From an uncultured Clostridia bacterium (GTDB lineage Bacteria > Bacillota_A > Clostridia > TANB77 > CAG-508): DNA of 13,704 nucleotides. A model generated the notes under the pieces. That model was given only the letters and a program-made list of their open reading frames with translations, had not been told where the DNA came from and did no database searches. The stretch lies in assembly GCA_944393165.1 (NCBI GenBank), contig CALXZF010000141.1, positions 1 through 13,704 on the forward strand, given 5' to 3'. Both the position numbers and the translations under genes were made by a program. Positions 1,050-13,699 of this stretch are shown here, in pieces; position 1 is the stretch's first letter; the number at the start of each line of letters is the position of its first letter.

Positions 1050-1078
1050 TTGCAAAAAATAAAAAGTTAGTATAAAAT
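1050..1078 (+). promoter_or_regulatory. Sigma-A-type promoter upstream of the first (AG)11 module
   Basis: TTGCAA at 1050-1055 and TAAAAT at 1073-1078 are separated by 17 bases. The same pair of hexamers at the same spacing precedes sufC (6366-6394). It would transcribe the small ORF at 1160. Apart from this the stretch 953-1159 is AT-rich and shows no gene. Confidence 0.5.
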
Positions 1079-1159
1079 GGAATTAATGTTTTGATAGAGA
1101 AAACTTAACGATATAAAAAATAACAAAATGTTACAGTAAAATATTTCAAGGAGAAACAC

Positions 1160-1225
1160 ATGAAAAAAACGAGAAAACATGAAAGCGTTGAAACACTAAG
1201 AGAGAGAGAGAGAGAGAGAGCATAA
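1160..1225 (+). CDS. Small ORF ending in an Arg-Glu repeat (module copy 1)
   Basis: A 21-codon ORF starts at ATG 1160, 8 bases after a clear AAGGAG site (1148-1153). It reads through the (AG)11 tract as alternating Arg and Glu and stops at TAA 1223-1225 just after it. A second module with the same plan lies at 13483-13554: an RBS, an ATG a whole number of codons before the tract, (AG)11, then a TAA two codons on. I recognise no family. The short peptide may be the product, or this may be the off state of a longer phase-variable protein, since one more AG unit would join the open frame at 1221-1388. The translation signals are good; the function is unknown. Confidence 0.5.
   Translation: MKKTRKHESVETLRERERERA
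1199..1220 (+). repeat. (AG)11 dinucleotide tract, copy 1
   Basis: Eleven uninterrupted AG units lie inside the small ORF at 1160. A gain or loss of one unit shifts the frame. Plus one unit joins the ATG to the open frame 1221-1388; minus one leads to a stop about a dozen codons on. Confidence 0.95.
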
Positions 1226-1388
1226 TTTTAAAGAAAAAGGCGTTGTGTGTGATATAAAAAATGTATGTGAAATAATATCAAACAATGAAGAATTAAAGAA
1301 TAAAAAAACAATGTGTCAAAAGGACAGACTTTTGTGCAGTAGAGAAAAAAAGATAACTCTACTACATGATAGCCTGTCCTTTTGGTGA
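1221..1388 (+). other. Latent reading frame after the AG tract (55 codons)
   Basis: This frame starts HNFKEKG directly after the AG tract and ends with ITLLHDSLSFW before TGA 1386-1388. It has no start of its own and is one base out of frame with ATG 1160. Its counterpart at 13550-13699 matches at both ends: HNFKE against YNLRE, and KDRL, SR, KITLL and DSLSF near the C-terminus. Several of the matching codons differ only in the third base (GAC/GAT, AGT/AGC, CTA/CTG, AGC/AGT), and one copy has a whole extra codon, as expected of protein-coding sequence. The middle has diverged. No known family recognised. Confidence 0.5.
1318..1383 (+). terminator. Hairpin closing module copy 1
   Basis: AAAAGGACAG at 1318-1327 pairs perfectly with CTGTCCTTTT at 1374-1383. 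An inner stem AGTAGAG (1338-1344) pairs with CTCTACT (1357-1363). The TTTT at the end could make it a terminator. The same two-stem plan recurs at 13628-13692 with a changed inner stem. It overlaps the end of the latent reading frame. Confidence 0.5.
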
Positions 1389-1432: not shown

Positions 1433-3250
1433 TTGAAAAAAAACGAAAGAGTAGGTAATACTTTAAAAGGTAGCCAAGGAATAACCTTGCTAGCGCTTGT
1501 AATAACAATAATTGTGCTAATCATTTTAGCAGTAGTAACATACAACTTAACATTTGGAAATAGTGGAATAATAACAAGAGCAAATGAAGCAAAATATATG
1601 ACAATACTAGCACAGTTTAAAGATGAAGTAGAACTATTTAAGGCAGAGAAATTGTTGGAAAATCCAGATTTTAATGCGAATAGCTTAACTGCAGGATATA
1701 ACGAATTAAACTATGAGCCACAGCCTGAAGGAGAAACAGGGACAATATATGATGTAATACCAAGCCTGCAAGGAAGCATTTTTGACGGGAAAATGGAAGT
1801 GATAAAAGGGGAACTGTTACTTAACTCAACAGAGCTGGATGAAATAAGAGTGGCACAAACATTAAATATACAAGTAAATCCATATCTAATAGTTGACGGT
1901 GTACTACTATCAGCTAATACAAATCTAGCGTTAATGGATGAAAGTGGAACATTAGTAATACCAGATTCAGTAACAGCAATCGGAGAAGGAGCATTTGCAG
2001 ATTTATCAGGGTTAAAAACAATCATTATCCCAGGAACAGTAAAAGAGATAAGGCAAAATGCATTTAGAAATAATGCGGATTTGGAAACTGTAATATTACA
2101 AGAAGGTGTGGAGACAATTGGTATTTGTTCATTTGCTGGCTGTAACAAAATAGTAGATGTGGAATTACCAGAGAGTTTGACAAAAATTGGATCAATGGCA
2201 TTTTTTCAGTGTAGCAGTTTAAAAAGTATAGACATACCAGCCAAGGTTGAAATTATTGACAATCAAGCCTTTCAAGAATGTGTTAATTTATCTACAGTGA
2301 CATTTTTAGAAGGATTGAAACAAATTAATTATGGTGCATTTATGAGTTGCAGTAAATTAGACAACATAGTTATACCTAGTAGTGTACAATCTATAAATGC
2401 AGGAGCTTTTGCAGGATGTACTAGTTTAGCTAATATTTCAACAGAAAATAATAATTATTATGAATATGATTCAAACAGTGGATTACTAATGACAAAAGAT
2501 AAGACAGACATAATTTTTGTATCTTCAAGTGTAGTATCATCAAATGAAGTATTTGAAATACCAGAAGGAGTGACAAGTTTTAATACAACCATAAATACTT
2601 ATTATAATATAACCAAAATAATAATACCAGCTAGTTTACAAAGCATTTCACAGGCATATATATTTCCTACATCTATAAACGAAATTGAAGTAAATCCAAA
2701 TAATAATTATTATATAGTAGAAAATGATTGCTTATATACAAAAGACAAAAAAACTTTGATAGTATGTTTTACAAAGCAAGAAACAGTAGAACTGGCAGAA
2801 GGTTTGGAAACTATAGGTGCTTATTCTTTTAGATTAGCTACAAATCTAACTGATGTGGTTTTACCAGACTCGGTAACGACAATAGAAGGATTCTCATTTA
2901 CTGAAGAAAATAATAAATTAAAAAATTTAAGAATAGGCCCAAATGTAAGTTCAATATCTGCAACATTTAAAGCAGGCGTTTTCTCGGTAACGGTTAATAT
3001 AGATCAGGATAATCCTTGCTATTGTATAGAAAATAATGTATTATATAATAAAGAAAAAACAAAATTAATAACAGTATGCTACAAAATAGATGGCGAATTT
3101 ATAGTGAATAGCAATGTTACCCAGATAACAACTTATGCATTTCAATCTCAAGATCAGATGACTGAAGTGAGGTTGCCAGAAGGTTTAATGATAATTGAAG
3201 ACTTATCTTTTGCTGGCTGTAATAAATTAACATATATATATACCCAATAG
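1433..3250 (+). CDS. Pilin-like leader fused to BspA-type leucine-rich repeats
   Basis: The start is TTG 1433, seven bases after GAGGAGG (1419-1425). Residues 16-36 form the hydrophobic segment GITLLALVITIIVLIILAVV, of the type IV pilin-like N-terminal kind common in Clostridia, preceded by Lys, Arg and Gly. A coiled region of about 120 residues follows, then many BspA/TpLRR units with the pattern IPxSVxxIxxxAFxxCxxLxxI, giving 605 residues so far. Such proteins are anchored at or exported to the cell surface; a binding or adhesion role is inferred. The frame ends artificially at TAG 3248-3250, because loss of two bases in a TA run at about 3231-3242 leaves the last repeat and the C-terminus in another frame (3243-3392). 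Confidence 0.85.
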   Translation: MKKNERVGNTLKGSQGITLLALVITIIVLIILAVVTYNLTFGNSGIITRANEAKYMTILAQFKDEVELFKAEKLLENPDFNANSLTAGYNELNYEPQPEGETGTIYDVIPSLQGSIFDGKMEVIKGELLLNSTELDEIRVAQTLNIQVNPYLIVDGVLLSANTNLALMDESGTLVIPDSVTAIGEGAFADLSGLKTIIIPGTVKEIRQNAFRNNADLETVILQEGVETIGICSFAGCNKIVDVELPESLTKIGSMAFFQCSSLKSIDIPAKVEIIDNQAFQECVNLSTVTFLEGLKQINYGAFMSCSKLDNIVIPSSVQSINAGAFAGCTSLANISTENNNYYEYDSNSGLLMTKDKTDIIFVSSSVVSSNEVFEIPEGVTSFNTTINTYYNITKIIIPASLQSISQAYIFPTSINEIEVNPNNNYYIVENDCLYTKDKKTLIVCFTKQETVELAEGLETIGAYSFRLATNLTDVVLPDSVTTIEGFSFTEENNKLKNLRIGPNVSSISATFKAGVFSVTVNIDQDNPCYCIENNVLYNKEKTKLITVCYKIDGEFIVNSNVTQITTYAFQSQDQMTEVRLPEGLMIIEDLSFAGCNKLTYIYTQ

Positions 3251-3392
3251 TGTTGAAACAATAGGAATTAATTCCTTTGCAAATGCAACGAATCTACAAC
3301 AAATTCAAATCGACAAAGCGCCAGGAGAAATAGTAGGCTCTCCATGGGGAGCAATAAGAGGAGACAGAATAGTAGAGTGGTTAAGAGATTAA
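3243..3392 (+). pseudogene. Frameshifted C-terminal end of the LRR protein
   Basis: This frame continues the interrupted repeat with IPNSVETIGINSFANATNL, then the closing segment IDKAPGEIVGSPWGA and IVEWLRD, before TAA 3390-3392. The IDKxxGxIxGxPWGA form is typical of the last unit of clostridial LRR proteins. Adding one TA unit to the tract before 3243 makes a single continuous protein of about 653 residues. It has no start signal of its own. Confidence 0.85.
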
Positions 3393-3400
3393 CCACTCTA
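3373..3400. terminator. Hairpin between the LRR gene and dapB
   Basis: TAGAGTGGTTAA at 3373-3384 and TTAACCACTCTA at 3389-3400 form a perfect 12-bp stem with a GAGA loop. It overlaps the stop codon of the LRR gene and lies between two convergent genes, so it may act in both directions. The T run is weak on either side. Confidence 0.6.
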
Positions 3401-3411
3401 TTGTGTATAAC

Positions 3412-4171
3412 TTATAGTAAATCACTCATATCGTACATTCCATTTTTCTTTGTAATAATAAATTGGGCAGCTCGCAAAGCACCTTCTACATAAATATTTC
3501 TAGAATAAGCAGTATGAGTGAGCTCGATACTTTCGTTGTCACCTAAAAACAAAACGGAATGTTCGCCTACAACACTTCCGCCTCTTACAGAAGAAAAACC
3601 TATTTCATTTTTTGTTCTTGCATAAGAATTATTGGAAGCTATGTAAGCATTTTTGGAACTAACATAAGAGTTTCTACTAAAAACATACTTATACCTATTA
3701 TTACATCTTTTATTAATTCTATCTGCAATCATTAAAGCGGTTCCGGCTAGGTGCATCTAGCTTATTTCTATGATGTTTTTCAATTATTTCAATATCCATA
3801 TTATTTAGATTTTTGGCAAAATCTGCCACCATGTTTGAAAAAACATGAATACCATAGGACATATTAGAAGATTTAAAAATTGGAATAGCTGCTGAAAATT
3901 CTTTTATTCTTTTTTCTTCAATAGGACTAAAACCTGTAGTTGCGACTACAATTGGTACTAATTCTCTTACTGCATAATTGAGTGCTATAAAAGTAGAATA
4001 AGTGGAAGAAAAATCTATAATAACATCAGGTTTTTGGCTTATAGAAGAAAATAGTTTACAATTTTGCTTATCTATACTATACAGTAAATTATATTCATTG
4101 GAATTTTGTATATACTTAGAAAGTGCCATACCCATTTTTCCATTACAACCATTTAATAAAATGTTAATCAT
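3412..4171 (-). pseudogene. dapB: 4-hydroxy-tetrahydrodipicolinate reductase, frameshifted
   Basis: DapB reduces the product of DapA to tetrahydrodipicolinate with NAD(P)H. The N-terminal nucleotide-binding loop reads GCNGKMG, followed by NMSYGIHV and the catalytic EKHHRNKLDAPS. There the frame breaks: the + strand reads GGCT at 3744-3747, where removing one of the paired bases restores the family sequence DAPSGTALMIADRI. The rest contains IGFSSVRGGSVVGEH, the normal C-terminal signature, and ends at TAA (3412-3414). The repaired protein is about 252 residues, a little short because of a compact N-terminal half. ATG 4171 follows an AAAGGA site. An unusual tandem heptad insert lies at 3616-3678. 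dapA lies upstream on the same strand. Confidence 0.9.
3616..3678 (-). repeat. Three 21-bp tandem repeats inside dapB
   Basis: Three imperfect 21-base units (3658-3678, 3637-3657, 3616-3636) encode the heptads SRNSYVS, SKNAYIA and SNNSYAR. They fall just before the IGFSSVRGG signature, in a loop where related DapB proteins are shorter. The units keep the frame. An in-frame tandem duplication is the simplest origin. Confidence 0.7.
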
Positions 4172-4260
4172 TTTCTATCACTATCCTTTATAAAATTAGA
4201 ATTTACGATTAATGAGGAGTATATCTCTTAATCCAAACGCAGAAAGCATATATTAAATAA

Positions 4261-4292
4261 AAAGATATAACTATAAATTAAGTTATATCTTT
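4261..4292 (-). terminator. Terminator after the HD-domain gene
   Basis: AAAGATATAACT at 4261-4272 and AGTTATATCTTT at 4281-4292 form a perfect 12-bp stem with an 8-base loop. On the minus strand the stem runs into a T-rich stretch, so it would end transcription from the HD-domain gene before dapB. Confidence 0.65.
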
Positions 4293-4315
4293 AATATATT
4301 CTATTAATAAATATT

Positions 4316-5026
4316 CTATGCAATTCTAAAAAATATCATACTTAAGAAAATATATGCATATCTGTAAAATGTTTTTGTTTCTAATTTGCTTTGTAAATAT
4401 AAATAAGTTTCTAAGCATGCACTGTATTTATCCATGACAGTGACTATAAATGTTTCTCTATAGCGAGGCATACCAAATGTTACAGGCCACATATGCTTTA
4501 AAATAATATCTCGCTCAATATCATTTAGTTCAAAGAGCTTGCTGGCATTTTTAAAAGCAATTTGAGGATGTATAAATGCATGTAAACCAGGTAAATCAAT
4601 GTCTCTGTGCTTTTTACGCCAATCATATAAAAACAAATCATGTAGCATTGCGGCACGAGTGGCAGATATATAATCGAGCTTTAACTTCTTGCATGCTATA
4701 TATGTAAAATATGCTACTTGCATGCAATGTTTGTAACATGAAGTGTTACAATGTTGTCTGTAATTTTTCATTTGCTTGACCGTATCATTTGAAATAATAT
4801 CATCTATAATAGTAAAAAATTCTGTTAGTTGATATTTTTTATGCATCCTTGAGTGAATATCTTTATTTACATATGAATCTATTTGAGTACCAATATTTGT
4901 GTAAATATCCTCGTTTTCAATACTTTCAGTATTTTTAATTAATTTATTTTGTGAATCGTCTATTTTAACTACTTGTTTATTATGTTTTACTTTAATAAAC
5001 ATTTCTTTTAAAGAGTGTAAACTCAT
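4316..5026 (-). CDS. HD-domain metal-dependent hydrolase
   Basis: A 236-residue protein. The first 60 or so residues are polar and unassigned. From about residue 88 it carries an HD-superfamily core: H100 in HCMQVAYFTYIA, the doublet H129-D130 in AAMLHDLFLYDW, H153 in AFIHPQIA, H178 in LKHMWP and D199 in VMDKYSA, which together would bind a metal pair. The LHDLFLYDW and HMWP motifs mark a widespread clostridial subfamily of predicted phosphohydrolases; the substrate is unknown. An AAGGAG site lies before ATG 5026, and a good promoter lies at 5060-5088. It sits between dapA and dapB with its own promoter and terminator, so no role in lysine synthesis is implied. The gene ends with TAG. Confidence 0.85.
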   Translation of the reverse strand: MSLHSLKEMFIKVKHNKQVVKIDDSQNKLIKNTESIENEDIYTNIGTQIDSYVNKDIHSRMHKKYQLTEFFTIIDDIISNDTVKQMKNYRQHCNTSCYKHCMQVAYFTYIACKKLKLDYISATRAAMLHDLFLYDWRKKHRDIDLPGLHAFIHPQIAFKNASKLFELNDIERDIILKHMWPVTFGMPRYRETFIVTVMDKYSACLETYLYLQSKLETKTFYRYAYIFLSMIFFRIA

Positions 5027-5059
5027 TTTCTTCTCCTTAAAAATTTACTTTACATATTT

Positions 5060-5088
5060 ATTATAGCACGAAAACATAATAATGTGAA
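5060..5088 (-). promoter_or_regulatory. Promoter of the HD-domain gene
   Basis: On the minus strand TTCACA (5083-5088) and TATAAT (5060-5065) are spaced by 17 bases, 34 bases upstream of the start codon. Confidence 0.65.
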
Positions 5089-5262
5089 CAAATTAAGAAA
5101 GTTTTAAGAAGTTTTATTTTATGTGGAAAGTTGTGGGTAGCTTAGGGTACATTATTTACAAATATATTTTATACAAAGTAACATTTTATAAAAACATTTC
5201 GAATATGTTGGTCAAGCATTAGTTTAATAATAAGAATACTTATAAAAAAGTATGACTTGTAA

Positions 5263-6144
5263 CTAAAGGTTAAATTTGCTAATTAGCAAATCAAGTTTTT
5301 CTTTGTTTTTATCTGTTAGTTCTACAAGTGGTAAACGAGGTAAACCACAATCAAATCCTATTTTATTTACTGCGTATTTAATTGGTATAGGGTTTACTTC
5401 ACAGAATAGTGCATTAATAAGAGGGAGCGCGTATATTTGGGAAGCTGTGGCTTTTTGCCAATTACCAGTCAAATAATCCATTACCATTTCATGAACAAAT
5501 TTTGGATAAATATTTGACAATACAGAAATAACACCTAATCCGCCAAGAGAAAGAACTGGTAATATTTGGTCATCATTTCCAGAATAGATAGTAAGCTCAT
5601 CACTGCAAAGATTAGCAATTTTGGCTACTTGTGAAATATTTCCACTTGCTTCTTTCGCTGCCACAATGTTAGGAATTTTAGCTAGTTCGTAAAAAGTCTC
5701 TGGTTCTATATTTACACCTGTTCTGCTAGGAACATTGTATAGAATTATAGGTAAATGAACACTTTGGGCAATCTTCGAATAATGTGACACAAGGCCAGCT
5801 TGTGTTGTTTTATTATAGTATGGAGTTACAATAAGCAAAGCATCTATACCAACAGATTCAGCATACTTTGACATTGTAATCACATCCTTAGTGTTGTTTC
5901 CACCAGTGCCTGCAATAACAGGAACTCTGTTATTTACAATTTTTACACTAAAATCAATAACAGCTTTTTTCTCTTCTAAGCTCATTGTAGCAGATTCTCC
6001 TGTTGTGCCACAAATTACTAAGCTATCAACCCCTTCCAAAATTTGAAATTCAATTAACTTCCTTAGTTCTTCAAAATTTATTCCGTCATTAGTAAAAGGT
6101 GTAACCAATGCAGTTCCGCATCCTTTAAAAACAACATTCTTCAT
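5263..6144 (-). CDS. dapA: 4-hydroxy-tetrahydrodipicolinate synthase
   Basis: DapA condenses pyruvate with aspartate semialdehyde, the first committed step of the diaminopimelate/lysine pathway. The 293-residue protein has the usual length and the family residues: the GTTGES loop at 46-51, Y136 in LYNVPSRTGVN with R141 that holds the carboxylate, and the Schiff-base lysine K164 in VAAKEASGN. The start chosen is ATG 6144, behind an AAAGGA site. An in-frame start further upstream would add 13 residues not seen in the family. Its promoter (6195-6222) faces the suf promoter across a large palindrome. The gene ends with TAG. Confidence 0.96.
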   Translation of the reverse strand: MKNVVFKGCGTALVTPFTNDGINFEELRKLIEFQILEGVDSLVICGTTGESATMSLEEKKAVIDFSVKIVNNRVPVIAGTGGNNTKDVITMSKYAESVGIDALLIVTPYYNKTTQAGLVSHYSKIAQSVHLPIILYNVPSRTGVNIEPETFYELAKIPNIVAAKEASGNISQVAKIANLCSDELTIYSGNDDQILPVLSLGGLGVISVLSNIYPKFVHEMVMDYLTGNWQKATASQIYALPLINALFCEVNPIPIKYAVNKIGFDCGLPRLPLVELTDKNKEKLDLLISKFNL

Positions 6145-6194
6145 AATAAAATTTATTCCTTTCTTGCTTTTATGAAAAAGCATTAAATAGTTTA

Positions 6195-6222
6195 ATAATA
6201 TATATGAATAAAACTATGTAAA
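6195..6222 (-). promoter_or_regulatory. Promoter of dapA
   Basis: On the minus strand TTTACA (6217-6222) and TATTAT (6195-6200) are spaced by 16 bases. The -35 box lies two bases from the palindrome at 6225-6362. Confidence 0.6.
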
Positions 6223-6224
6223 AA

Positions 6225-6362
6225 TTCTGGGACAAGGGGACGGAGCTTTTGTCCCAATTTTGGGAAATGGGGACAGACCTGTGTACATTTTGATAAAAGA
6301 ATATATAGGTCTGTCCCTTCGTCCCATTTTTGGGACAAAAGCTCCGTCCCCTTGTCCCAGAA
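6225..6362. repeat. 138-bp REP-like palindrome between divergent promoters
   Basis: Perfect 33-base arms at 6225-6257 and 6330-6362 enclose a second stem, GGGACAGACCT (6270-6280) with AGGTCTGTCCC (6307-6317), and a 26-base AT-rich loop. The arms carry GGGACAAGGGGACGGAG and TTTTGTCCC, a wording I know from dispersed GGGAC-rich palindromes in Clostridia that resemble REP sequences mobilised by IS200-like (RAYT) transposases. No transposase lies in the window. It is far more G+C-rich than its surroundings. It could form a cruciform or, in RNA, a bidirectional terminator. Confidence 0.85.
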
Positions 6363-6365
6363 CTG

Positions 6366-6394
6366 TTGCAAATTTTTTTGAAAAATGGTAAAAT
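6366..6394 (+). promoter_or_regulatory. Promoter of the suf genes
   Basis: TTGCAA (6366-6371) and TAAAAT (6389-6394) are spaced by 17 bases and start four bases after the palindrome ends. The leader to sufC would be about 150 bases. It holds a small hairpin, GCATAC 6502-6507 with GTATGC 6517-6522, shortly before the AGGAGG at 6541. Confidence 0.6.
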
Positions 6395-6550: not shown

Positions 6551-7294
6551 ATGTTAGAATTAAAGGATATATGTTTTTCAAGAGATAATAAAAACATCTT
6601 GAAAGATGTAAATTTAAAAATAGATAACAACAAAATGATTGTTATCACAGGACCAAACGGTTCAGGAAAATCAACACTTGCAAAAATTATTATGGGAATC
6701 GAAAACCCAGATTCCGGAAAAATAATTTTTGACGGTAAAGATATAACTAATTTGTCTATAACAGAAAGAGCAAAGGCGGGAATTGGTTTCGCATTCCAAC
6801 AGCCTGTGAGGTTTAAAGGATTAACAGTAAAAGATTTAATCGAAATATCTGCAGGAAACAGCATAAAGGTGTGTGATGCATGTGATGTTTTGGCAGATGT
6901 TGGATTATGTGCACAAGAATATTTAAATAGAGAAGTGAATAGTGAGCTTTCTGGAGGAGAATTAAAGAGAATAGAAATAGCTATGCTTGCTGCTAAAAAA
7001 TCTAAACTTACTATATTTGATGAACCAGAAGCAGGAATTGACTTATGGAGCTTTAATAACTTAATTTCTGTATTTGAAAAAATGCATGATGATATTAAGG
7101 GCTCAATTGTTATAATTTCACACCAAGAGAGAATATTAAATATTGCGGATGAAATTGTATTGATAACAAATGGTAGTGTAGAAAAACACGGACCAAGAGA
7201 AGAAATTTTACCACAAATATTTAATAAAGTTAAGCCTTGTCATAAAATAAATGGCAACCAAAAATGTGGCAGAGAAGAAGGGGGGCTTGACTAA
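6551..7294 (+). CDS. sufC: Fe-S cluster assembly ATPase SufC
   Basis: SufC is the ABC-type ATPase that drives the SUF scaffold building Fe-S clusters in the cytosol. The 247-residue protein shows Walker A GPNGSGKST (34-42), the ABC signature LSGGE (133-137), Walker B LTIFDEP (153-159) and the switch histidine H191. The C-terminus ends in a Cys- and Gly-containing tail with CHK and KCG. AGGAGG at 6541-6546 precedes ATG 6551. The next gene, sufB-like, starts one base after its stop, so they form one operon. No sufD, sufS or sufU lies nearby, which fits a two-gene minimal SUF arrangement. Confidence 0.93.
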   Translation: MLELKDICFSRDNKNILKDVNLKIDNNKMIVITGPNGSGKSTLAKIIMGIENPDSGKIIFDGKDITNLSITERAKAGIGFAFQQPVRFKGLTVKDLIEISAGNSIKVCDACDVLADVGLCAQEYLNREVNSELSGGELKRIEIAMLAAKKSKLTIFDEPEAGIDLWSFNNLISVFEKMHDDIKGSIVIISHQERILNIADEIVLITNGSVEKHGPREEILPQIFNKVKPCHKINGNQKCGREEGGLD

Positions 7295-7295
7295 T

Positions 7296-8214
7296 ATGGA
7301 TAAAATAGAAAAGAATTTATTAAAGCAAATTGCAGATATTGAAAAAACACCAATGGGTGCATATAATATAAGAGAAAATGGAAAAGGAATTGCTAGAAAT
7401 ACTACAGCTAATATAGATATAGTCACCAAAGAAGATAAGCCCGGAATTGATATAATAATTAAACCAAACACGAAAAACGAAAGTGTGCATATACCAGTTA
7501 TATTAACTCAAGGGCGGGCTAACAGATGTGGTATATAACGATTTCTATATTGGAGAAAACGCAGATGTAGTCATAGTTGCAGGCTGTGGAATACATAATA
7601 ACACATGTAATACAGCTCAGCATGACGGAATACACACATTCCACTTGGCCAAAGGGGCAAAAATAAAATATATTGAGAAACATTATGGTGAAGGAGAAAG
7701 AACAGGAGATAGAGTTCTAAATCCACAAACCATTATAAACCTTGATGAAAATGCTACAATGGAAATGGAATCAGTACAAATAAAAGGAGTAACATCTACA
7801 ATTAGGGAAACATTTGCACACATGAAAAAAGGAAGTAGTTTAGTGATTTCTGAAAGGATAATGACAACAGGAAAACAAACAGCGAAAACTGTGTTTGATG
7901 TAAGTTTAGACGGAGAGGATTCAAGTGTACATGTTGCATCTAGGTCTGTTGCAGAGGATGACTCCGTACAAGAATTTATATCAAATGTAAAAGGAAACAC
8001 AAAATGTTTTGGACATGTTGAATGTGATGCAATAATTATGGGAAATGCTAGAGTAATTTCAGATCCAAAAATTGAAGCAAATGATGTAGATGCAAGTTTG
8101 ATTCACGAAGCAGCAATAGGAAAAATTGCAGGAGAGCAATTAACAAAGCTTATGACATTAGGACTTACAGAAAAAGAAGCTGAAGAGCAAATTATAAATG
8201 GATTCTTGAAATAA
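7296..8214 (+). pseudogene. SufB/SufD-family Fe-S scaffold, frameshifted
   Basis: This is the only SufB/D-like partner of SufC here and would be the scaffold on which clusters are built. The first part (ATG 7296) ends in VILTQ and then leaves frame. The second part resumes with GLTDVVYNDFYIGENADV and continues through IVAGCGIHNN, ETFAHMKKGS and HVECDAIIMG to the family ending GKIAGEQL and GLTEKEAEEQII. Removing one G from the GGG at 7512-7514 joins both into a protein of about 305 residues. That length is much shorter than classical SufB and suits the single SufBD of minimal two-gene systems. The cysteine in VECDA lies where SufB has its cluster-binding Cys. Without repair, a GTG at 7528 would be the only start for the second part. 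Confidence 0.88.
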
Positions 8215-9629: not shown

Positions 9630-9777
9630 TTGAGCAATGTATATTAAAAAAAATTATTTTCGGCCCCCAACTGCGTACAAACTGTAAATGCTCCAATTCT
9701 TTTCGCATAACAGTTTGTAGACTTGTCGGTCCCCACCTTGAGCACTCAAATAAATTTTTTTAATATACATTGCTCAA
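9630..9777 (-). ncRNA. Structured repeat, copy 1 (possible minus-strand RNA)
   Basis: TTGAGCAATGTATATT at 9630-9645 pairs with its exact complement at 9762-9777, and the stem continues through A/T runs to about 30 bp. Inside lie a stem ACAAACTGT (9678-9686) with ACAGTTTGT (9710-9718), a stem ATGC/GCAT within it, and CCAAC with GTCGG. The core of about 85 bases matches the copy at 11924-12074 at all but a few positions, while the outer stem differs but stays paired. Mismatches on the plus strand become G-U pairs on the minus strand, which suggests an RNA read from that side. I cannot assign a known family. A palindromic mobile repeat is the alternative. Confidence 0.5.
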
Positions 9778-11899: not shown

Positions 11900-12100
11900 T
11901 TATAATTCACAGTCGTTTTTGGGGTAAAGCAATGTATATTTTGTATTTTCTGTTTTCGGCCCCCAACATCGTACAAACTGTAAATGCTCAAATCCTTTTC
12001 GCATAACAGTTTGTAGACTTGTTGGTCCCCACCTTCAGCACTCAAACAGAAATAAAAAATATACACTGCTTTACATATTAATATCAACTGTGAATTATAA
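11900..12100 (-). ncRNA. Structured repeat, copy 2, with an extra outer stem
   Basis: The element proper spans 11924-12074: GTAAAGCAATGTATATT pairs with AATATACACTGCTTTAC apart from one A-C mismatch that becomes G-U on the minus strand. The core from CGGCCCCCAAC to AGCACTCAAA nearly repeats copy 1. Unlike copy 1 it is wrapped by a further perfect 14-bp stem, TTATAATTCACAGT (11900-11913) with ACTGTGAATTATAA (12087-12100). No T run follows on either strand, so a simple terminator is unlikely. Function and family unknown; minus-strand RNA is an inference from the wobble pairs. Confidence 0.5.
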
Positions 12101-13363: not shown

Positions 13364-13482
13364 CAAACCGAAACAAAGAAAAAAAGATGCTTTGATGACA
13401 AAAAATAGAAAAAAGATTAAAAAACAAAAAGAGATAGTATAGAATAAAGAAGTAAAGAATAAAAAACAGGAGAGAAAATATT

Positions 13483-13554
13483 ATGACAACAAAAGAAACT
13501 AAAAACCCTAAAACTATTGAGGTTGTAAGAGAGAGAGAGAGAGAGAGAGTATAA
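13483..13554 (+). CDS. Small ORF ending in an Arg-Glu repeat (module copy 2)
   Basis: A 23-codon ORF starts at ATG 13483 after an AGGAG site (13468-13472), reads MTTKETKNPKTIEVV, then alternating Arg and Glu over the (AG)11 tract, and stops at TAA 13552-13554. It has the plan of the ORF at 1160-1225, with the tract the same length and in the same frame; the sequences before the tract differ. One more AG unit would join it to the open frame 13550-13699. A clear promoter is not seen in 13364-13482, which is otherwise A-rich and empty. Unknown function. Confidence 0.5.
   Translation: MTTKETKNPKTIEVVRERERERV
13528..13549 (+). repeat. (AG)11 dinucleotide tract, copy 2
   Basis: Eleven uninterrupted AG units, the same count as at 1199-1220, lie inside the small ORF at 13483. 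A length change switches the downstream frame. Confidence 0.95.
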
Positions 13555-13699
13555 TCTTAGAGAATTAAGCTTTGTTAATTATGCCCAAAAAACAAGAAAA
13601 AAAGTAAAAATAGATAAGATTAATAACAAGGATAGACTTTCAAATAGCAGAAAGAAAAACAAAATAACTCTGCTATATGATAGTCTGTCCTTTTTGTAG
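13550..13699 (+). other. Latent reading frame after the AG tract (49 codons)
   Basis: This frame reads YNLRELSFVNYAQKTRKK from the tract and ends KITLLYDSLSFL before TAG 13697-13699, within five bases of the window end. It parallels 1221-1388 at both ends and is open throughout, but is one base out of frame with ATG 13483. It is basic (many Lys and Arg). No known family recognised. Confidence 0.5.
13628..13695 (+). terminator. Hairpin closing module copy 2
   Basis: AAGGATAGACT (13628-13638) pairs with AGTCTGTCCTT (13682-13692) through one T-G pair; inside, TAGCAGA (13645-13651) pairs with TCTGCTA (13669-13675). A T run at 13691-13695 follows. The inner stem differs from copy 1 (AGTAGAG/CTCTACT) yet stays paired. 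It may end transcription of the module. Confidence 0.55.

Follow-up and report, generated by a model that had tools for sequence, protein, structure and literature searches.

Two AG-tract loci in the window

The window, i.e. the whole stretch of 13,704 nucleotides analysed here, contains two short ORFs that each run from an ATG with a ribosome binding site (RBS) into an (AG)11 tract (Table 1). These are the only AG/GA tracts of at least five units found by a whole-window scan, and even an (AG)8 is expected 0.00 times according to 200 dinucleotide shuffles of the window. The ATG frame of copy 1 encodes MKKTRKHESVETLRERERERA, with TAA as the second codon past the tract. An earlier note on this DNA had described this locus as an RBS and ATG leading into (AG)11, a stop two codons on and a 55-codon frame one AG unit off, and had placed a second locus of the same plan and tract length at 13483-13699, with both copies OFF at 11 units. 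The coordinates and plan of both copies are confirmed; copy 2 combines (AG)11 with a 49-codon frame, and TAA ends the ATG frame shortly after the tract in each. The copies align with each other over 84 nt (75%) and 51 nt (80%) in a repeat search. Since this alignment lies outside the tract, they represent one element rather than two chance tracts. Each ends with a hairpin of the type AAGGAYAGACT...AGYCTGTCCTTTT. A mobile element was considered and set aside, as no terminal repeats flanking the two window copies emerged from the repeat search.

The gene downstream of copy 1 encodes a surface protein with the N-terminus GITLLALVITIIVLIILA and has its own RBS, AGGAGG, directly upstream. The window ends before any downstream gene of copy 2. 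A promoter pattern scan returned four promoter-like sites against 2.5 expected, which is not significant alone. We also rejected a promoter-spacing switch: [CT]ATAAT occurs past the window tract, but the TTGA hexamer is 27 nt upstream, and [CT]ATAAT is kept in only six of the first 19 copies of the element.

Several housekeeping frames of the window (intervals 98-514, 3412-4171 and 7251-8214) are interrupted. L21 (98-514) contains an in-frame TAG at 344-346, beyond which the family profile resumes; DapB is split over two frames; and SufBD is probably broken, its core match beginning part-way into the profile, in a second ORF. Such interruptions suggest errors in the sequence or decay, and the precise tract length given by this assembly may therefore not be reliable.

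Table 1. Features of the two AG-tract loci (window coordinates)
Feature	Position	Strand	Basis
Promoter-like hexamers TTGCAA-17-TAAAAT upstream of copy 1, weak candidate	1050-1078	+	
RBS AAGGAG, leader copy 1	1148-1153	+	sequence
Leader ORF copy 1, present OFF form, 21 aa, TAA 1223-1225	1160-1225	+	ORF reading
(AG)11 tract copy 1, presumed switch	1199-1220	+	tract search, shuffle test
Long post-tract (ON) frame copy 1, 55 codons + TGA 1386-1388, crosses hairpin	1221-1388	+	
Terminator-like hairpin copy 1, short U run (UCCUUUUGG)	1317-1384	+	folding, covariation over 15 copies
Surface-protein gene downstream of copy 1, BspA-type LRR_5	1433-3250	+	LRR_5 E 3.4e-61
RBS AGGAG, leader copy 2	13468-13472	+	sequence
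Leader ORF copy 2, OFF, 23 aa, TAA 13552-13554	13483-13554	+	
(AG)11 tract copy 2	13528-13549	+	tract search, shuffle test
Long post-tract frame copy 2, 49 codons (13550-13696) + TAG	13550-13699	+	
Terminator-like hairpin copy 2	13626-13694	+	repeat 80% to copy 1

A multi-copy family in Clostridia

The element recurs in other Clostridia. A pattern scan of species genomes returned five stretches, three of which carry the same element in uncultured Clostridium or Clostridia; in the other two (L003, from Bartonella, and L004) the remaining parts of the element are missing, and both were discarded as chance matches. With a looser anchored pattern, 36 of 243 genomes from one Clostridia family gave matches, up to 21 in one genome, and a control pattern had no match in any genome listed for that draw. 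A draw from the order, which overlaps the family draw, gave matches in 13 of 143 genomes. Two scans of viral sequence gave no exact match to the pattern. The kinship of the window to the surveyed genomes rests on the element itself.

We analysed 15 and then 80 further regions, from 20 of the 36 matching genomes (mostly those with several copies) plus G003. Parsing yielded 97 tracts, two of them flagged as duplicates; copy 1 of the window fell outside the parsing regular expression and was added by hand, and L038, with an interrupted tract, did not fit it either. Requiring at least 180 nt past the tract left 83 of 96 copies and removed copy 2 of the window. A simple rule (an ATG with an RBS and an open frame to the tract) predicts a translated leader in 77 of these 83, the remaining six having no start codon under it. 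Frame state was assigned by the same rule, and the long frame is ambiguous in L045 (second tract) and L050.

At L002 (about 3052-6307), a tandem duplication with a repeat period of about 3.2 kb covers the cassette together with the gene downstream of it and accounts for the two copies there. Genome G057 contains eight copies by pattern; the seven analysed (L081-L087) are uniform at 11 units and share one OFF frame, which sets them apart from the copies of other genomes. Recent duplication or reduced slippage could explain this uniformity.

Tract length and reading-frame state

Tract length varies widely. The scored tracts range from 8 to 20 units and peak at 11 (29 copies) and 12 (18 copies). 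Outside the scored set, seven uninterrupted units are present in L038 and L098, and 21 in L120, which lies at a contig end. The first Clostridia matches were all (AG)11, seemingly against phase variation, because the pattern itself selected for that length; a general search of the same genomes gave n = 7 to 20, and a strictly fixed tract length was rejected. The long frame is in frame with the ATG (ON) in just 10 of the 77 copies with an identified ATG, so that OFF dominates; the binomial P for this count (4e-5) is indicative only, since paralogues are pooled and the start rule is simple.

Public proteins include ON versions. A profile search in which 7990 candidates sharing most words were scored gave at least 84 matches. 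An RE tract occurs in 73 of the 84, the query profile itself containing the tract, and 56 have the typical leader, RE tract and long frame of a natural ON form according to a regular expression. The protein database favours ON versions, since an OFF leader is too short for gene calling. A single-sequence search with copy 1 gave one significant match, P0001 (46%), an ON protein of 74 aa in which RERERERE is followed by a frame ending DSLSFL, close to the size that the earlier note had predicted for the switched form. Three further proteins (P0029, P0030 and P0074) share the same kind of post-tract part and have a different start and an extra unexplained segment; one of the three contains HTHTHTHTHT, which suggests that (AC)n replaces (AG)n there.

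Several loci are represented by versions that differ in the tract. Four are OFF in the genome and ON in a public protein (L047, also seen as L104, with P0002; L105 with P0022; L106 with P0025, P0026 and P0032; and L149 with P0079). The leader is the same or nearly so in each pair, and identity past the tract is 98-100%. P0048 and P0054 are identical past the tract and differ by two residues, equivalent to three AG units. One more locus, L117, is ON in both genome and public protein. The tract lengths of all public versions are inferred from protein residues. This variation between copies and between versions of one locus, together with the open downstream frames of other copies, supports the phase-variable frame that the earlier note had suggested, and runs counter to the invariant tracts and stop-filled downstream frames that the note had named as refuting it. 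Slippage would presumably generate these versions within a population.

Surface-protein genes next to the tracts

Most tracts lie close upstream of a surface-protein gene. A profile search of six genomes, chosen for their high copy number, placed the start of a GITLxALV-type (GIT[LIV]xALV) gene match at most 800 nt downstream and on the same strand for 50 of 76 tracts, compared with 2 of 76 in the upstream control. Among the remaining tracts, at least 17 are at contig ends, a lower bound because lengths are known for only part of the contigs, and nine have neither a gene match nor a known contig end nearby. Conversely, 50 of the 138 GITLxALV-type matches in these genomes carry a tract, and up to 13 tract-linked surface genes were counted in one genome. 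We refer to the downstream genes as prepilin-like, an assumed label that we take from the G-ITLxALV-hydrophobic pattern.

Domain scans covered four downstream products: the window protein and those of L036, L119 and L139. The product at L036 is an fn3 protein. Those of L119 and L139 have only sub-cutoff NCBIfam matches, for L119 including GspG (E 0.011), and the window protein has no N_methyl Pfam match at E 0.1. The leucine-rich repeat (LRR) part of the window protein (1433-3250) also matches the NCBIfam adhesin HupY/LrrG (E 9e-25), but is not HupY/LrrG itself, given a score of 86.9 bits against a cut-off of 1250.

The copies fall into two architectures. The open post-tract frame exceeds 400 nt in 11 of the 83 scored copies. 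In type A, represented in genomes G124, G065 and G119, this frame enters a hydrophobic N-terminus of the GITLxALV type. An example is L119, in frame at n = 13, which reads MKIVEAV-RERERERE-SSNLENAKGVTLIALVITIIVLLILAG... In type B (72 of 83), the post-tract frame belongs to the leader, and a qualifying hairpin (see next section) follows in 68 and is absent in four. L114, L160 and L143 are intermediates that combine a strong hairpin with a continuous ORF.

The hairpin and the long frame

The arms of the hairpin covary across copies. We aligned 15 of 19 copies, leaving out L039 (diverged hairpin), L040 (truncated), and L050 and the second L049 copy (near-duplicates). Paired bases fill 92.7% of the cells of this alignment, from which the scored structure was itself derived, and 43 cells carry double changes compared with 17.3 in shuffled and 1-13 in slid controls. 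G-U pairs are frequent (UG in 12 of 15 copies at one pair), giving standard pairs only on the strand of the leader. The strand cannot be told from folding energy alone: the RNA hairpin of copy 1 has a minimum free energy of -30.3 (z -6.9) and the opposite strand -35.0. The hairpin of copy 2, folded in part only, reaches -18.0 (z -4.7). A short U run of 4-5 follows the hairpin, and an intrinsic-terminator pattern that requires a loop of 3-8 nt called none. We infer that the hairpin may terminate transcription.

The position of the hairpin is related to the reading frames. We compared the longest of the three post-tract frames with the hairpin in 71 copies whose hairpin lies within 300 nt and folds at -15 kcal/mol or better. 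The long frame enters the hairpin by at least 12 nt in 67 of them, against 10.1 expected from dinucleotide shuffles. Among type B copies, it does so in 64 of 68, the exceptions numbering four, and in all 68 a distance of 15 nt or more separates the end of the next-longest frame from the hairpin that follows; the median long frame overruns by 67.5 nt, and the median next-longest frame ends 64.5 nt before the hairpin. Across 71 copies, a set chosen differently from that of the shuffle test and including paralogues, the end of the long frame tracks the hairpin position (Spearman 0.45), and for the two shorter frames the correlations are weakly negative (-0.23 and -0.26). Both off-frames close within 30 nt in 63 of 71 copies; given the 53.8 expected from shuffles, this slight excess is no evidence alone.

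These results bear on a neutral reading, in which the tract would be a microsatellite within a leader in decay or a repeat that is spreading, its length and frame without consequence. The predominance of OFF copies, the many tracts at contig ends and the scored copies without a start codon would all suit this reading. It would leave unexplained a long frame that is open far above shuffle expectation, the order of leader, tract and hairpin in most scored copies (20 genomes and the window) and the link to a downstream gene, and we give it hardly any credence.

Constraint on the leader peptide

The earlier note took the switched product to be the ~76-residue peptide itself. Codon-position counts in 11 leader groups generally show no sign of purifying selection on such a peptide: changes are flat over the three positions in most groups (e.g. 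121/130/144 in G057 and 73/55/69 in G103), as opposed to a third-position excess in type-A coding sequence (23/9/50). The exceptions are three G088 groups that lean to the third position (21/22/46, 7/5/14 and 8/8/14), where some leader peptides may matter and be under constraint. The flat codon positions and the open long frame together indicate that what is generally kept is a ribosome path into the hairpin.

A peptide product could still be imagined, namely a small phase-variable Arg-Glu-tagged protein with its own terminator, next to a surface gene that is expressed independently. The good RBS and ATG, the 56 full-length ON proteins in the databases and the third-position excess in G088 speak for such a product, which nevertheless seems quite unlikely to us: changes are about even over codon positions in the other groups, post-tract sequence and length vary widely between genomes, and type A copies place the tract directly in surface genes. 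The phase variation proposed in the earlier note is supported, and the ~76-residue peptide is probably not what is switched; conserved instead are the open frame into the hairpin and the neighbouring surface gene. The hairpin, the downstream-gene link, the copies with a tract inside the surface gene and the multi-genome family go beyond that earlier reading.

A proposed model for surface-gene switching

We propose that every copy serves as a slipped-strand cassette for phase variation of the adjacent surface-protein gene, a reading based on comparative sequence analysis to which we assign a probability of about 0.78. In type B copies, the AG tract within the short leader ORF would set the frame of the ribosome. 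When the repeat number fits (in the window, arithmetic gives n = 0 mod 3, e.g. 12), ribosomes would enter the hairpin sequence and hold the 5′ arm open as a single strand, and RNA polymerase would pass into the LRR surface gene (ON). At other numbers, e.g. n = 11, ribosomes in copy 1 would stop at most 37 nt past the tract, the hairpin would form ahead of them and transcription would end early (OFF). Type A copies, with the tract in frame with the surface protein, would switch the protein directly.

The surface gene is equipped with an AGGAGG and a start of its own, so the leader frame must act through transcription or through coupling. Under frame-dependent translational coupling or polarity, reinitiation after the long leader, or a block to Rho while it is translated, would aid the gene that follows, and the hairpin would be incidental. 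Such a mechanism would need the frame too and could dispense with a terminator, and the ON stop of copy 1 lies 44 nt before the surface-gene start. We consider it very improbable in view of the AGGAGG that the downstream gene already has, of a hairpin kept with compensatory changes and of long-frame ends that track the hairpin. Translation-dependent relief of a hairpin terminator is the mechanism that we favour over coupling, with translation of the leader presumably providing the relief; the short U runs after the hairpin are a weak point of this mechanism.

For the Clostridia family as a whole, we tentatively suggest, at somewhat less than even odds, a genome-wide contingency system in which many surface genes would each be gated by AG slippage and antitermination, most being OFF and few displayed at once, with two interconverting forms (leader attenuator and in-frame fusion). 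If the model is correct, a mechanism known from two pilus loci of a single streptococcus would exist in Clostridia as a portable module with many copies. AG counts per locus in metagenome reads would then allow the ON/OFF state of surface antigens to be tracked without culture, and the short RERERE proteins in sequence databases would be explained.

Relation to known systems

Frame switching by dinucleotide repeats occurs in Helicobacter pylori, in which oipA and sabA have CT repeats near the start of outer-membrane protein genes. Unlike the AG cassettes, these repeats read CT on the coding strand, lie in the signal-sequence region and belong to a Gram-negative bacterium; we know of no leader attenuator at these genes. 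The type III methyltransferase gene mod of Mycoplasma mycoides, an R-M gene, has an (AG)10/12 tract (PMC3498834). As in the AG cassettes, the tract lies in an ORF, TAA follows directly in the off frame, and the full product arises at another repeat number, according to the consulted parts of that report (PMC3498834). These parts mention neither a leader nor a hairpin, and mod is comparable only to type A.

The closest known system, judging from our sequences and from the consulted parts of the report describing it, is the Pil1/Pil3 attenuator of Streptococcus gallolyticus, in which a (GCAGA)n repeat in a leader-peptide gene forms a phase-variable attenuator (PMC3894217). The Pil1 mechanism is experimentally supported there; a short leader leaves 39-49 nt between its stop and the terminator, and the ends of longer leaders fall immediately upstream of the terminator, within it or beyond it (PMC3894217). 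Both systems have a simple repeat in an RBS-bearing leader ORF with surface-appendage genes next to it, short leaders that end tens of nucleotides before a stem-loop and long ones that end near, in or after it, and a low-expression state, presumed in the AG cassettes, that is the majority (PMC3894217). The likeness is one of working principle rather than orthology: the AG cassettes have a dinucleotide repeat and lack GCAGA, occur in another host with up to 21 pattern matches per genome, and precede single GITLxALV-type surface genes (LRR and fn3 proteins among those examined) rather than sortase pili. Moreover, the tract is fused into the surface ORF in some copies. The logic is the same, with another repeat, host and cargo, and with many copies per genome. 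The papers listed by searches of open-licence PMC full text include none on leader cassettes with an AG tract, nor any on a comparable family in Clostridia.

Other features of the window

Matches of the window to known RNA families are all below gathering scores, with miRNA types at the hairpin. The frame of the LRR surface gene appears to shift near its 3′ end (3229-3250), at a short (AT)5 run, past which LRR-like sequence, judged by eye only, seems to go on in another frame. Inverted repeats occur elsewhere in the window, at 6210-6377 (76 nt arms, 82%), 9630-9777 (30 nt arms, 97%) and 11924-12074 (25 nt arms, 92%). The latter two enclose a direct-repeat pair, 9657-9774 and 11953-12070, with 87% identity.
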